From contig JABJFI010000013.1 in NCBI GenBank assembly GCA_018662825.1, positions 1 through 44,664 on the forward strand: 44,664 nt of DNA. Direction: 5' to 3'. Position numbers and translations under genes: made by a program. The notes under the pieces are model-generated. The model made no database searches. It had not been told where the DNA came from and worked only from the letters and a program-made list of their open reading frames with translations. Source of the DNA: Methanobacteriota archaeon. Lineage in GTDB: Archaea; Thermoplasmatota; Poseidoniia; Poseidoniales; Poseidoniaceae. Shown here one piece after another: positions 8,504-14,398 of the stretch; the stretch's first letter is position 1, and each line of letters starts with the position of its first letter.

Positions 8504-10321
8504 TTATCCTCGAAGACGTGCAAGCAATTCGTCGATTGCATCTATTTTCCCACGGACTGAATTGAGACGGTCAGAAGCATCACTGACTGATTCAGCAATG
8601 ACTAATTCTTCATCAGTTTCTACTTCTTCTTCTCCCTGTGGTTTGAATGCTTGAGCAAGAGCCTTGAGTTCTGTGACAATTGCATCGACTTGGGTGTCAG
8701 AAATCATTATTCCTGGTGCAATGCGAGGGATTTCTGAGGGCGAAATAAATCCTAATTCAGCTCCAATTATTCCTGCGCAAGCAAGAACACGTGGCCGTAA
8801 ATCAACCGTATTCACTTCGTAACCTCTCGATTCAAGGAATCGAATGACTAAGGCTTGTTGTGAGTCGGAGAAACTCCCCTCACTTGATTCGAGAACTGTT
8901 TCAACGAGTTCTTCAAATCCGGCAATATTTCTCTCAAGTCGATCAACAGTCATACGCTCGATGTCAGTTAGATGAACAGCACCATGTTGCAATACTCGAA
9001 GAATACGGTTACGTCGAGCGATTGAAGGGTCTTGAAGTGCTTCAGCCTGGTGGATTTCCACATGGAGGTCGAATAGTGCATGAAGCCTACCAGATACACT
9101 AGGAATTCTCAAATCGAGACCCATTCCATGTCCAATTTCTTCGAATGACATTCTGGCCTTGACCAAATCGCCTTCTGATGATGCAAGTGTATTGTTCAAT
9201 TGATCACGGAGCATATCGCGGGCATTTTCGAAATTTCGTAATGCTTCACGTTCTCGCCAAGAATTTGGCATTGCGACCACAGCATCCTTTTCAGTTTGAG
9301 AACGGAATTCTAATTCCATCATTGTATTGCGAATTCCATCACTAACTGCTGGGATTTCTACAGCAAATCCATGGCTTGAAAGACTTTGGATAAATGCTTC
9401 CAAATCATCAGTGTCACTGGTACTGCTCACCGCTAAGTAATCTCTTCCAGCCGCCTCAATTTCTGCGGCACGAGCAGTTAATTCAAGCAGCACTGCTTCG
9501 ACTTCTAGGCTGTGTTCAACTACTTCTGCCACATGGGCACTTTGGACCATTGCTGGAGCATCAACCACATCAAGAGAACCCTGCCCTGCACGTAGTGCAT
9601 CATCAATTGATGCAGCAATAGGTGCCCGAGAGATTGGAATCCCTTCTTGAGCTAATTCAGTTCGCATTTCAGTCTCTTGCTCAAAAGTCCATCCTTCCGG
9701 ATGTTGTGAAACAAAGTTTTCTACTGTTTCAATAACAACATCTTGCTCGGTAACACTTTTTGTTTCAGGAGATTCATTCTTTGAATCTTCACTTGGAATT
9801 GGAATTGCGACAACAGAATCGCCACTGCGTGGGCGGCGCAGGCTTTTCTTGACTTTACCCCAGCCACCTTGCTGATAGGCTAATACGCCTGCGACACGAA
9901 CGAGTAGTGCTTGTTTATTGCCAGAAAGAGGTAGTTCCAAAATTTTGCACATTTCATGCAATTGGTCACGAGTCATTGAATCAAGTGATTCAGGTACGAA
10001 TTGTTTTGGGTCTTGATTGAGGTGAAGATACAGGCGTTGGCGACGAGCCCGAACTGAGCCTGATTTTTTGATTCCAAAAATCCCTAGGATTTCTCCAATC
10101 TCTGCATTCATGAGATTCTTTATTCCCTCTGGAGAAAGGTCCCATTCATCCAATATAAGATGCTGAATCAATCGAGCCCGAACAACTTCGACTGAGCCTT
10201 TTTTGGGCAAATTATAGGTGGCAGCCAACTCCTTGAGCCCATCAAATCGTGCTTGATAGAGTTCGTTCAAGAGTTCGCCTTTTGCAGTCACTGCCTCACC
10301 TACCGTTGACTTTCGGTTCAA
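8504..10321 (-). CDS. Large helical protein with three N-terminal SAP-like motifs
   Basis: 605 residues, not assigned to a known family. The N-terminal 150 residues hold three SAP-like helix-turn-helix units (LKELAATYNLPKKGSVEVVRA; ILGIFGIKKSGSVRARRQRL; LHEMCKILELPLSGNKQALL). SAP motifs usually bind DNA or RNA. A basic patch follows (KKSLRRPRSG), then a long acidic, mostly helical region up to the C-terminus. No enzyme motif or membrane segment is visible. The track start is a TTG without a clear ribosome-binding site; a slightly later start is possible. It converges with the ATPase gene (5-base gap) and diverges from the next gene. A chromatin or nucleic-acid tethering role is a guess from the SAP motifs. 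Confidence 0.6.
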   Translation of the reverse strand: MNRKSTVGEAVTAKGELLNELYQARFDGLKELAATYNLPKKGSVEVVRARLIQHLILDEWDLSPEGIKNLMNAEIGEILGIFGIKKSGSVRARRQRLYLHLNQDPKQFVPESLDSMTRDQLHEMCKILELPLSGNKQALLVRVAGVLAYQQGGWGKVKKSLRRPRSGDSVVAIPIPSEDSKNESPETKSVTEQDVVIETVENFVSQHPEGWTFEQETEMRTELAQEGIPISRAPIAASIDDALRAGQGSLDVVDAPAMVQSAHVAEVVEHSLEVEAVLLELTARAAEIEAAGRDYLAVSSTSDTDDLEAFIQSLSSHGFAVEIPAVSDGIRNTMMELEFRSQTEKDAVVAMPNSWREREALRNFENARDMLRDQLNNTLASSEGDLVKARMSFEEIGHGMGLDLRIPSVSGRLHALFDLHVEIHQAEALQDPSIARRNRILRVLQHGAVHLTDIERMTVDRLERNIAGFEELVETVLESSEGSFSDSQQALVIRFLESRGYEVNTVDLRPRVLACAGIIGAELGFISPSEIPRIAPGIMISDTQVDAIVTELKALAQAFKPQGEEEVETDEELVIAESVSDASDRLNSVRGKIDAIDELLARLRG

Positions 10322-10455
10322 AGGGGTATATGTGTCTTCGCAGTGTTGAGGTAAAAAAAAGGGCAGTTCTTCGACTGTTTACTCCTTTCCATATGCCTGT
10401 ATCATTTTCGATTTTATCCAATGCTTTGAAGAGTATGAGTAACAGGATAGTTGCC
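10322..10455. promoter_or_regulatory. Divergent promoter region
   Basis: 134 bases between two divergently read genes. An AT-rich segment CATATACC lies close to the minus-strand start, and TTTTCGATTTTATCC lies about 40 bases before the plus-strand ATG; both are possible TATA elements. A run of eight A follows GAGGT at about 10350. No mapped start sites, so low confidence. Confidence 0.35.
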
Positions 10456-11037
10456 ATGGCGAGAACCGTTAAGGCTACCAAGGCCGGACTCAAGGAGGCA
10501 AATTCACTTTCAGAATCCTTGCGGGAACTTGTCTGGACTGATTTGAAAAATCAGTATGGTGGTTTTGAGGAAATGCTTTCTTCACGAATTCAGGGCGCTG
10601 AAGAAGCAATTCTCGATGGAACAAAAGGAAAGTTAGCCATAATTGCTGGAATCGGTGTTATGCGAAAGAATCTGGAACAAGCCCAACGTCGATTTTCTCG
10701 TTCAAATGATATTGAAGAATTACGTGCTTTTTTAGTAGATCTTGGGGAACGTATTTTTCGCCTAAGAGTGGCCAATGATAAAATCGTCGAATCACTAAAA
10801 GCGGTTTTGAATCCATCTCTCAGTGCTATTGAAATTGTTGAAAAGTTTGCTTCTGATATACAGCGTTCAGCTGGAACCTGGGAACGAAATGGTCGTGAAA
10901 TAGATGAAGCCATTCTAGAATTGTGTGATGAACACGAACCCGCTGAAATTGGTGACCTTGAACATTACATTACAAAACAGGGATACGGTTCACTGCTCGA
11001 AAGACCAGTTCATTCTTCTTCTGAAGAAGATGCTTGA
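10456..11037 (+). CDS. Small helical protein of unknown function
   Basis: 193 residues, almost entirely predicted alpha-helix, soluble, with a Ser-Glu tail (HSSSEEDA). I do not recognise the family. The track start at 10249 would overlap the divergent gene, so a later start is needed: ATG 10456 (MARTVKATKAG) or ATG 10435 (MSNRIVAMARTVK); neither has a strong ribosome-binding site. Heptad-like helices suggest an oligomer (LEQAQRRFSRSNDIEELRAF; ANDKIVESLKAVLNPSL). Its last 28 bases overlap the end of the convergent HemC-like gene, and a perfect inverted repeat encodes the acidic tails of both proteins. Confidence 0.6.
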   Translation: MARTVKATKAGLKEANSLSESLRELVWTDLKNQYGGFEEMLSSRIQGAEEAILDGTKGKLAIIAGIGVMRKNLEQAQRRFSRSNDIEELRAFLVDLGERIFRLRVANDKIVESLKAVLNPSLSAIEIVEKFASDIQRSAGTWERNGREIDEAILELCDEHEPAEIGDLEHYITKQGYGSLLERPVHSSSEEDA

Positions 11038-12179
11038 ACCGCGTCAAGATTCAGTAAGGCTGGCTTAGCAAGATTAAATTCATCAGGTAATCCTGGCAAC
11101 TTACGAATCATTTCTTCATGTTCCGATTGCATTGTTTCGAGCAGGATTTCAAATTCCTTGAGAACATGAATCATACCCATGTGACTATCTTCAACGGTAC
11201 AAATACGTTCTGCGCTTGCCGAAACGGTTCCATGGAAATTCAAAGTTTCCATCTTCATTTGGATCCTTCGTTCCTTGGAATCAACATCATTTCTAGGCAC
11301 TGAATGAGCCCATTTTGATGTTCCAGTTTTGTTTTTAGTATCTGATGAATCTAAATAGACTTCACTTGTGAACTCGTCTTCGGAACGTTGTGCTTCTTTG
11401 AGAATGGTCTTGAACTTTCGTTGTTCCACAAATATCCCAATAATCGGGTGTAAATTATTTGGCAGTGAATCAAGTAATGCAGATTCAATACGATGCGCAA
11501 TATATGCTCCGGAGTCGCCCATTTGTTGAACAGTATCTGATGGGAAGCGAGAGCGCGAGACTAGCAAGGTGAACCCATACAAAGGTGGTGGAATGAAATG
11601 AGTTCGCTCAGGATTCTCTCTTTGAAGTCCGAGTGTATGGCGGCGTGCTTTGTATTTGAGTGCAGAATGTTCAGCACGTGAAACCACGAAACCCTCCAAC
11701 AACTCATCCTGGCGACATTCTTCTATCCAATGAATTCTGTCGAGGTCATCTAGATTGAGGTAGTCATCGAGTTTGCCAATTCGGTCAGCAAATTGTTCAC
11801 CAGTTAACAACACAAGGTCACTACGTAGACGGCGCATTTGTCTTCGTAAAAGTTCATTATCACAAACGATGAGTGCTTCTGGGTACAGGTATTCCGGCTT
11901 ATCATCAGATACGAGAACCCATGTTGGTTCTCGGCGAGGTAAAATTGTCGCTATGGACAAACCTTCAACATTGTGATTTCTCCAATCTAGTGCACTCATT
12001 GCAACAAGGTCACCAGTACCATTCTTGAGTGCCTCTATTGCTGACTCAATATGGGGCAGTTGGCTTAATTTAAAATCGAAATCCTTACGATTTTGTTCAA
12101 TGCTACGCTCGATTTGTAGGCGAACACCATCATGGCGTGATGCAGTGGTTAAGACTTCAAGTCGAACCCTTTCTGACAA
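11010..12179 (-). CDS. Porphobilinogen-deaminase-like (HemC fold) protein lacking the cofactor cysteine
   Basis: 389 residues. Residues 1-200 match the HemC domain pattern: VRLEVLTTASRHDGVRLQIE (HemC: RIxTRxSxLALWQ), then DLVAMSALDW aligned to DIAVHSMKDVP, GLSIATILPRREPTWVLVS aligned to GLxLxxIxxREDPRDAxVS, and ELLRRQMRRLRSDLVLL aligned to SLRRQxQLxxxRPDL. The catalytic Asp and the RRQ pair are kept. The segment that should carry the dipyrromethane-cofactor Cys (LEGGCQVPIG) reads LPNNLHPIIG, so the Cys is Leu. A C-terminal extension of about 110 residues ends in SSSEEE. I start at TTG 12179 because GAGGTGAT ends just before it at a good distance; the track start at 12371 overlaps the GGPP synthase gene. 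Probably not a classical hydroxymethylbilane synthase. Homology is judged by eye. Confidence 0.6.
   Translation of the reverse strand: MSERVRLEVLTTASRHDGVRLQIERSIEQNRKDFDFKLSQLPHIESAIEALKNGTGDLVAMSALDWRNHNVEGLSIATILPRREPTWVLVSDDKPEYLYPEALIVCDNELLRRQMRRLRSDLVLLTGEQFADRIGKLDDYLNLDDLDRIHWIEECRQDELLEGFVVSRAEHSALKYKARRHTLGLQRENPERTHFIPPPLYGFTLLVSRSRFPSDTVQQMGDSGAYIAHRIESALLDSLPNNLHPIIGIFVEQRKFKTILKEAQRSEDEFTSEVYLDSSDTKNKTGTSKWAHSVPRNDVDSKERRIQMKMETLNFHGTVSASAERICTVEDSHMGMIHVLKEFEILLETMQSEHEEMIRKLPGLPDEFNLAKPALLNLDAVQASSSEEE
11014..11030. repeat. Perfect inverted repeat in the overlap of two convergent genes
   Basis: TCTTCTTC-T-GAAGAAGA, 8-base arms with a one-base centre. It lies in the 28-base overlap of the two convergent genes and encodes SSSEED on the + strand and SSSEEE on the - strand. 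Confidence 0.8.
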
Positions 12180-12260
12180 CACATCACCTCGGCGAGGATG
12201 ACTCCTCACATTACAAGGCCGGAGACTACGGGTTAAGAAGGGCACCCTTGTAGGATAGTC

Positions 12261-13244
12261 GTGGCGAGTATTGAATTGGATGTCAGCGACCGCCTCGAAT
12301 CGATGCGCAATTTGGTTAATAGTGAGCTTGAAGCATTGATTGAAAAAGAAAAAAAGAATGGTTCTGGGCAAGTTGCTGAACTTTGTTCTTCTGTCATTTT
12401 TGCAGGAGGAAAACGTCTTCGTCCGCTTTTATTACTCATTGCTTACGAGGTTGCAGGAGGTAAAGTAATCGAAGATGTAATGCCGCTTGCTTTGGCTTTA
12501 GAAATGATTCATACGGCTACTCTTGTGCATGATGACATCAACGATCAAGCATCACATCGTAGAGGTGTAGAAACAATTCATTCACGGGTAGGGCTCCCCA
12601 AAGCGGTCATCGCAGGTGATTGGTTATTTTCACTCGGTTTTTCGCTCGCAGGTCGATATGATGAGAACATTGTTCGCAATGTGGCTAAATATTGCGCGGA
12701 CATAGCTGTTTCTGAATTCGATCAACTTGACCATGTTCTTGACCTTACCACTTCACCAGAGGATTATCTGGGCATTGTTCGCGGTAAAACAGCAGGGCCT
12801 TTTGCTGTAGGGTGCTATGCTGCAGGAATTATTGCAGGTCTTTCTAACGAGGATGCATCCCTACTTCGAAGTTTTGGCATGGATTTTGGAATCGCCTTCC
12901 AATTGGTTGATGATTTACTGGACTTACGCGGTGATGAACGGATGGGCAAACCAAGAGGTGCTGACGTCCTTGAAGGTAAAATGACTCTTCCATTAATTCA
13001 TGCATTAACGCTTTCCCACGGTGAAAGAAGGCAACGTCTTGCTCAAATTATTGAAAACTTCACCGATGATAACTTTGATGAATTGATGACTTTACTCAAC
13101 CATTCAGATAGTTTACATTATGCCGAAATATTGGTAAAAACTCATCTTGAGAGAGCTATTTCTAACCTCGAGCATTTCCCTGAAAGTGATTCAAAGACCA
13201 TGCTGCTTGCTGTTACAGACTATGTCAAGCGACGAAATATGTGA
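12261..13244 (+). CDS. idsA: Geranylgeranyl diphosphate synthase (short-chain polyprenyl synthase)
   Basis: 327-residue trans-isoprenyl diphosphate synthase that condenses IPP with allylic diphosphates to build the C20 chains of archaeal lipids. It has FAGGKRLRPLLLL, the first Asp-rich motif HDDINDQASHRRG and the second motif QLVDDLLDLRGDE, plus GKTAGPFAVG. The start is the GTG at 12261, after AGGATAG; the divergent HemC-like gene begins about 80 bases away, so the gap must contain both promoters. The geranylgeranyl reductase gene follows with its ATG 8 bases after the stop, consistent with a lipid operon. Product chain length (C15, C20 or longer) is inferred from the context. Confidence 0.9.
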   Translation: MASIELDVSDRLESMRNLVNSELEALIEKEKKNGSGQVAELCSSVIFAGGKRLRPLLLLIAYEVAGGKVIEDVMPLALALEMIHTATLVHDDINDQASHRRGVETIHSRVGLPKAVIAGDWLFSLGFSLAGRYDENIVRNVAKYCADIAVSEFDQLDHVLDLTTSPEDYLGIVRGKTAGPFAVGCYAAGIIAGLSNEDASLLRSFGMDFGIAFQLVDDLLDLRGDERMGKPRGADVLEGKMTLPLIHALTLSHGERRQRLAQIIENFTDDNFDELMTLLNHSDSLHYAEILVKTHLERAISNLEHFPESDSKTMLLAVTDYVKRRNM

Positions 13245-13252
13245 GGGATTCA

Positions 13253-14398
13253 ATGACCCGTAAAGAGGTTGAACACCGTCAAGTAATCATTGTGGGGGCA
13301 GGTCCTGCGGGTTCAGCATGTGCTCAACGCTTGGCTGAGGACAATATTGATGTCTTGGTCATAGAACGCCGAGAAATTGTAGGGAATCCTGCTCAGTGCG
13401 GTGAATGTATCCCGAATTGGGGGGAGGTAATTGGCACCTTTTCACATCTTGATGACCATAAATGGTTGAAAGATTATTTTGAATTTCCTAAACGCTTACG
13501 CCTTCATGACCTCGACAACATGCGAGTTTTTCTACCATCTGGAAAATCCTTTCATTTTGAGTTAGATGCTTTTGCAGGCCATCGATTACACTTTGATGGA
13601 TTCCTTTGTGACAAAGCGATAAATGCGGGCGCAGAAGTACGTACTGGTGAAGCGATGACTAACATTCAACATCAATCGAAACTCAACCGGGACCTGTTAA
13701 TTACTTCTGATGGGCGTTATTCTTTCGACTTCTTAATTGATGCAAGTGGTTCATTGGCGCACGTGTCGCGCTTGCGCCACGGAGATGATAATCGCTATAG
13801 ACCAAGAGACCAAGTCCCTACAGTTTATGCCCAAGTCCAAGGTAATGTACCGGAAACCTTTGATGTTTTCTTGGGCTCAGTAGCACCTTCAGGTTATGCA
13901 TGGATTATCCCAAAGGGACCAGATACCGCCAATGTTGGCCTCGGTGTACGTGCTGGTTACTTGGAAGGTAATTTGAAAGAACATTTGACAGAATTTTGTG
14001 CTTCTTTGAATTTTGAAATACTCTCCTGGGGTGGAGGTTGGATTCCGATGGGTGGCCCAGTAAAATCCATGGTCGATGGCACGACATTGGCCATTGGAGA
14101 CGCTGCTGGTTTGGTCATGCCAAGTAACGGAGGCGGTATTTCACAAGCGATAATTTCTGGATGTTTTGCAGCTGAAGCGATACTTGACAATCTGGGCGAT
14201 GGGACGCCATTACTAATGTATGAAACCCGAGTGAGGGCATCAATGGGAAGGGCATTGAAGAATTCACTTCGTTCTAAGAAAATGGGGTATGCCTTCTTCA
14301 AAGGTGACTTGGTCACAGAAACATTGTTGAGAATTCTTGGCCCAATTGGCGGAATCAAACGGGCCATGGAGTGCGATAAACCGATGTGGCTTTTCTGA
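13253..14398 (+). CDS. Geranylgeranyl reductase family flavoprotein (archaeal lipid saturation)
   Basis: 381-residue FAD-dependent reductase that hydrogenates the geranylgeranyl chains of archaeal ether lipids. The N-terminal Rossmann motif is VIIVGAGPAGSACAQRL with IERR at the end of beta-2. Next comes a conserved Cys-containing segment (NPAQCGECIP), the family motif SGYAWIIPKGPDTANVGLG, and the second FAD motif GTTLAIGDAAGLVMPSNGGG. The ATG at 13253 follows GAGGG at 5 bases and is preferred over the GTG at 13241, which overlaps the upstream stop. It is paired with GGPP synthase, its substrate supplier. Length and motifs are normal. Confidence 0.9.
   Translation: MTRKEVEHRQVIIVGAGPAGSACAQRLAEDNIDVLVIERREIVGNPAQCGECIPNWGEVIGTFSHLDDHKWLKDYFEFPKRLRLHDLDNMRVFLPSGKSFHFELDAFAGHRLHFDGFLCDKAINAGAEVRTGEAMTNIQHQSKLNRDLLITSDGRYSFDFLIDASGSLAHVSRLRHGDDNRYRPRDQVPTVYAQVQGNVPETFDVFLGSVAPSGYAWIIPKGPDTANVGLGVRAGYLEGNLKEHLTEFCASLNFEILSWGGGWIPMGGPVKSMVDGTTLAIGDAAGLVMPSNGGGISQAIISGCFAAEAILDNLGDGTPLLMYETRVRASMGRALKNSLRSKKMGYAFFKGDLVTETLLRILGPIGGIKRAMECDKPMWLF

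Follow-up and report, generated by a model that had tools for sequence, protein, structure and literature searches.

Computational analysis of a Cys-less HemC-fold protein conserved in Poseidoniales archaea

We have analysed a Cys-less HemC-fold protein of 389 aa, here called HC, which is encoded on the minus strand at 11010 to 12179 (stop codon within, TTG start) of a 44,664-nucleotide stretch of Poseidoniales DNA, the window of this study. Our computational results show that HC descends from porphobilinogen deaminase (HemC) with a predicted HemC fold, and, as read from family alignments, that its catalytic and cofactor apparatus has been lost. HemC is usually seen as inseparable from the dipyrromethane cofactor that it makes itself, and a whole family that keeps the HemC fold while dropping all its chemistry means that HemC can be repurposed. 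As to the present role, we judge the chances to be about even that HC is a HemC-derived pseudoenzyme kept as a ligand-binding or regulatory clamshell, with a SAP-domain protein as candidate partner and the idsA-GGR genes as candidate target. The original prediction, which described this reading frame as a HemC-like protein with replaced motifs, was confirmed as a whole in its reading frame, its motif replacements and, by family profile and AF2 model, its HemC relation.

HemC ancestry and predicted fold

When searched as a single sequence, the window protein matched Pfam PF01379 at E 0.019 and 15 bits, below the curated cut-off of 22.1, and no match was found in PDB or NCBIfam. Because this search was weak, the HemC reading stood at the edge of what one sequence can reveal. 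A match to PF01379 at E < 0.1 was found in 27 of 60 HC orthologues, and a few other orthologues passed the curated cut-off in genome searches. A match to Nup54 was rejected as chance (14.6 bits against a Pfam cut-off of 30.5). The relation became clear at the profile level, where the HC family profile built from 60 divergent orthologues matched a profile of 20 HemC proteins with a probability of 99% and E 7.2e-18, in a colinear alignment from residue 5 to 255 that covers the cofactor-turn region. A comparison by hhalign with six Poseidoniales HemC gave E 0.14, from a shallow profile of the wrong HemC branch.

The AF2 model based on the alignment of 60 sequences reached a pLDDT of 92.3 and a pTM of 0.89, and in a Foldseek search with this model PDB ranks 1 to 32 were all HemC (E 8e-17 to 9e-11, TM-score by target about 0.6 to 0.76), ahead of every fold of the periplasmic-binding type. 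An earlier run on 17 close orthologues reached a pLDDT of 65, and HemC was nonetheless top-ranked. The predicted structure has the three-domain fold of porphobilinogen deaminase, and two of its parts form the alpha/beta lobes of a clamshell, as is also seen in the secondary Foldseek matches. HC shares with HemC the order of secondary structure, the R-x-D-L segment, a PxPxxG-like segment and the beta-beta-alpha segment of domain 3. The alignment had been expected to span the N-terminal two-thirds of the protein; the relation stands, and its extent is larger, since all three HemC domains match. Similarly, the statement that HC is longer than HemC applies to insertions in domains 2 and 3 and an acidic C-terminal tail, while domain 1 is shorter and has lost the active-site loop.

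Considering the clamshell shape, we asked how far the likeness could reflect only a generic type-2 periplasmic-binding fold, as in LysR-type effector domains and solute-binding proteins, which are two-lobed like HC. A sequence-profile search of PDB did place the BvgS VFT domain (E 0.004) above HemC (E 0.015). However, the best non-HemC match of the model reached only E 8.6e-8, the profile alignment with HemC is long and colinear, HC has the third domain of HemC, and the HC profile retrieves HemC from whole genomes. When it was run over 390 genomes of the phylum and 20 matched loci outside the order were read, 19 carried the Cys of genuine HemC at the cofactor site and the remaining one (L222) was Cys-less. 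We therefore consider a purely generic likeness highly improbable.

Active-site losses and newly conserved residues

Residue losses were read from the profile alignment over the 60 orthologues and are given in E. coli HemC numbering. Position 242 is occupied by L, M, I and others in the HC family (L243 in the window protein), and Cys is not among the ten commonest residues of this column. The replacement of LEGGCQVPIG by LPNNLHPIIG was confirmed, as was that of HSMKD by MSALD. Neither of the two outcomes named as contrary to the original prediction, a fold of the periplasmic-binding type in place of HemC or an equivalently placed Cys, was observed. Two details of the original prediction did not hold. 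The Asp of SALD was taken as conserved, and it is present in the window protein but at D84 in only 21 of 60 orthologues, next to a variable K83. Also, the LRRQ of the window lies two residues off the register of HemC SSLRRQ in a gapless profile alignment, so that the residues at the true R131 and R132 positions are L110 and L111.

In the family, R131 is replaced by L, I, V or M, and R132 mostly by L, I or V and also by Q, T or A. R11 has become T and others, R176 has become L, A or I, S128 and S129 are unconserved, Q198 is variable, and the active-site loop 42-60 is deleted. The R149/R155 segment contains an insertion, where the alignment is unsure and shows no such conserved Arg. In HemC, the arginines that HC has lost normally grip the acetate and propionate groups of the substrate. 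The Cys242 residue is the cofactor attachment site of HemC (PMC7242693), the R131L and R132L replacements in the E. coli enzyme abolished cofactor binding, and D84A and D84N were inactive (PMC3945110). Cys242, Asp84, the Arg131/Arg132 pair with the other cleft arginines, and the mobile loop are thus the parts of HemC that the HC family does not keep.

HemC chemistry could in principle persist in a Cys-independent form, considering that the fold is retained overall. Against this, the Cys, the Arg pair, the loop and the Asp are all gone, the genome of the window has neither HemB to supply the substrate nor HemD to use the product, and species with a heme gene cluster possess a separate HemC with intact motifs. 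We hold this persistence to be very unlikely.

On the other side of these losses, a different set of residues is strongly conserved. D57, Q114, R117, R119, R179, R180, L183 and R209 are invariant in 60 of 60 orthologues, and R113, R168, H181, F195, P197, P199, R254 and E311 are nearly so. Of the conserved parts, HemC has counterparts of D57, the R-x-D segment, G163 and PxPxxG, but none of RQxxRxR, RRH or the single Arg residues. The dN/dS values of several pairs were between 0.03 and 0.09, and these computations show HC to be under purifying selection. A decaying pseudogene, for which the loss of known active-site residues might speak, is hardly credible, since beside the low dN/dS the reading frames are intact in nearly all matches and the start signals are conserved. 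The claims of Cys loss, catalysis loss and a new use of the fold were therefore supported family-wide, by the lost site residues, the other invariant set and the low dN/dS.

The newly conserved polar residues, which lie outside the HemC catalytic set, could also form the active site of a different enzyme, with R113, Q114, R117, R119, R168, R179, R180, H181, R209 and R254 acting on a substrate that carries phosphate or carboxyl groups and perhaps belongs to isoprenoid lipid metabolism. We take this possibility seriously, though we find it somewhat unlikely. Besides Arg, His and the structural Asp and Glu, the family has no conserved acid/base or nucleophile.

Distribution, heme genes and phylogeny

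Within the genus, 58 of 63 genomes contain HC, as do 186 of 194 Poseidoniales genomes overall, a set that includes records of Candidatus Poseidoniaceae, Poseidoniales and the MG-II chromosome CM001443; among the high-quality genomes it was present in 34 of 34. In a profile search, it was found in none of the 8 genomes from f3, a sister family within the class. Eleven genomes appeared HC-negative. Ten of them yielded no good idsA match (in one, a fragment lies at the edge of a contig); the 11th carries a divergent HC. Since idsA is likewise missing in 10 of the 11, the absences of HC are most likely assembly gaps, and HC is probably universal in Poseidoniales. In the genus, all 5 genomes that appear HC-negative carry HemB, and a loss of HC where heme genes exist was considered; it was rejected, as the neighbouring idsA was also missing or a divergent HC was found. 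Poseidoniales (Marine Group II) are among the most abundant archaea of the surface ocean. HC is uncharacterised and apparently universal in this abundant group, and its function probably matters to these organisms.

The genome of the window (91.7% complete) gave no match to HemB, HemC or HemD, and neither did the single-contig genome G001; COX1 is present in both. With a heme-copper oxidase subunit I and without detectable HemB, HemC or HemD, both organisms appear to be heme/tetrapyrrole auxotrophs. Of the 63 genomes in the genus, 28 have HemB and 58 have COX1, and the heme gene cluster is patchy. Matches to PF01379 above the cut-off occur in 49 of the 194 Poseidoniales genomes, within frames of about 570-580 aa that are apparently HemC-HemD fusions, the HemD part being our assignment. 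In loci L031-L060, the Poseidoniales HemC is followed by a HemD-like region in one frame, with hemB a few kb off. These fusion proteins (e.g. L031-L036) come from the same organisms as HC and have intact HSxKD, RRQ and GGC motifs, but they are patchy, unlike HC.

HC is found both with and without the heme gene cluster, and its presence is near-universal and independent of heme synthesis. Because HC is kept in genomes without recognisable HemB, HemC and HemD, a new use of the fold is supported. A hemC label on HC genes would falsely give heme-auxotrophic archaea a heme step. Considering that these archaea need heme and often do not make it, HC might be a tetrapyrrole or heme sensor or chaperone. 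Its HemC ancestry would suit such a role, and COX1 in genus genomes that lack HemB implies a heme supply to be managed. However, the arginines for the acetate and propionate groups are gone, and HC is unlinked to heme genes and occurs whether or not a heme cluster is present; we consider a heme-related role improbable.

In the phylogenetic tree, the HC sequences form a single clade (SH-aLRT 99) that branches outside every genuine HemC, and the Poseidoniales HemC falls inside genuine HemC (SH-aLRT 99/100). By sequence, HC is closest to the HemC of other Thermoplasmatota, whose profile scored 28.8 bits with the window protein and 50.7 bits at best, whereas the Poseidoniales HemC profile gave a median of -1.5 bits, i.e., no match. 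That HC arose by duplication of the HemC-HemD fusion found in Poseidoniales is contradicted by these profile scores and by the tree, in which long branches are involved. The simplest reading, with those long branches in mind, is that HC would descend from an old Thermoplasmatota HemC passed on by vertical inheritance, and that the Poseidoniales heme cluster would be a separate set, perhaps acquired later.

A further Cys-less paralogue of HemC was found in another Thermoplasmatota genome (G449; L222, 2829-3683, minus strand). Like HC, it has no cofactor Cys and no HSxKD, and it has a similar LLRxQLxRxRxD helix. This genome also contains a genuine HemC, to which the paralogue is closer, and its neighbours differ; it is probably an independent case. 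Searches of the PMC open subset found no paper on a Cys-less HemC paralogue or on the HC family as HemC-derived, and nothing specific on Poseidoniales heme synthesis. A set of 199 protein families has been associated with Poseidoniales (PMC9258230), and HC may be among them.

Gene neighbourhood, leader hairpin and possible function

As had been predicted, HC adjoins lipid genes and lies outside any heme operon. Divergent from it on the plus strand are an idsA-type polyprenyl diphosphate synthase (12261 to 13244; PF00348, E 1.7e-60) and, next after it, a geranylgeranyl reductase (GGR, 13241 to 14398; GGR_cat, E 1.1e-12). In the same direction as HC lies a SAP-domain protein (8504 to 10321, minus strand; PF02037, E 2.7e-6). 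The order of SAP protein and HC on one strand with idsA divergent was read at about 100 loci of both families, idsA being the divergent neighbour at every locus compared, and GGR stands next to idsA in most, though not all, loci of both families. In many lineages the SAP gene follows about 0-125 nt behind HC without an intervening gene, which is consistent with an operon where the two are directly adjacent. In family f1, a broader conserved block includes tad genes, moaA, aroA and mutL. Gene order is thus kept over more genes than SAP, HC, idsA and GGR, and the adjacency is accordingly weak evidence of function. For the enzyme considered above, the adjoining idsA and GGR genes of both families would be a fitting context, but SAP and HC are on the opposite strand to the lipid genes and hence not in one operon with them.

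Signals for expression were found for both divergent genes in the 81 bp between HC and idsA. On the plus strand, the conserved TATA-like GGTTAAGAAG at 12231 to 12240 lies 21-30 nt ahead of the idsA start and may be the idsA promoter, with a leaderless transcript. On the minus strand, HC has the Shine-Dalgarno sequence GAGGTGA (12184 to 12190), and CCGAGG at this site shows no variation over 27 aligned leaders. Directly upstream of the CGAGG element is a covarying stem-loop of 7 bp, GTGAGGA-GTCA-TCCTCGC (12192 to 12209, minus strand). Together, the hairpin and the Shine-Dalgarno region span 12184-12211. The stem-loop directly upstream of the CGAGGTGA element varies in sequence while its pairing is kept. 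Among 128 leaders with the CGAGG element, 124 have a perfect stem of at least 5 bp, with 21 distinct stems. Across the 27 leaders that were aligned, pairing holds in 98.9% of cells, compared with no more than 51% after sliding, and 24 double-sided changes were counted; as these leaders were picked for a common stem and loop length, the pairing count leans towards structure, while the covariation is independent of the choice. A covariance model gave one strong match in the genome of the window, the HC leader itself (E 4.3e-8, with 150 of 483 first-look candidates scored). By reading, without a count, family f2 leaders have a different hairpin at a similar position.

Returning to the preferred reading, a pseudoenzyme kept as a ligand-binding or regulatory clamshell, we propose the following. 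An ancient, vertically inherited HC would neither build nor hold the dipyrromethane cofactor and would not polymerise porphobilinogen, and it would have been fixed for another job in the ancestor of Poseidoniales. Ligand binding or sensing is a plausible new role, considering the predicted clamshell fold. The lobes of domains 1 and 2, which resemble periplasmic-binding proteins, may still open and close around either a small ligand, probably an anionic one, or a protein partner, which would be held by the new invariant Arg/Gln/His set, putatively placed in the cleft. The bound state would then be relayed to a partner, for which the SAP-domain protein, of a DNA-binding type, is the best candidate, and the divergent idsA-GGR operon would be the best candidate target; it is gene order that suggests both partner and target. 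SAP domains are also structural in some cases. The fullest version, in which HC and the SAP protein form a ligand-responsive regulator of membrane-lipid synthesis through idsA-GGR under control of the leader hairpin, is a tentative proposal that we regard as rather doubtful. If it were true, a heme enzyme would have turned into a regulator at the core of a planktonic archaeal order.

At its 3' end, HC meets a convergent plus-strand gene for a protein of 262 aa without a Pfam match (10249 to 11037), which occurs in many family f1 loci. The overlap of 28 bp (11010-11037) sits on the palindrome CTTCTTCAGAAGAAG, and as a result HC and the 262-aa protein both have acidic Ser/Glu tails.
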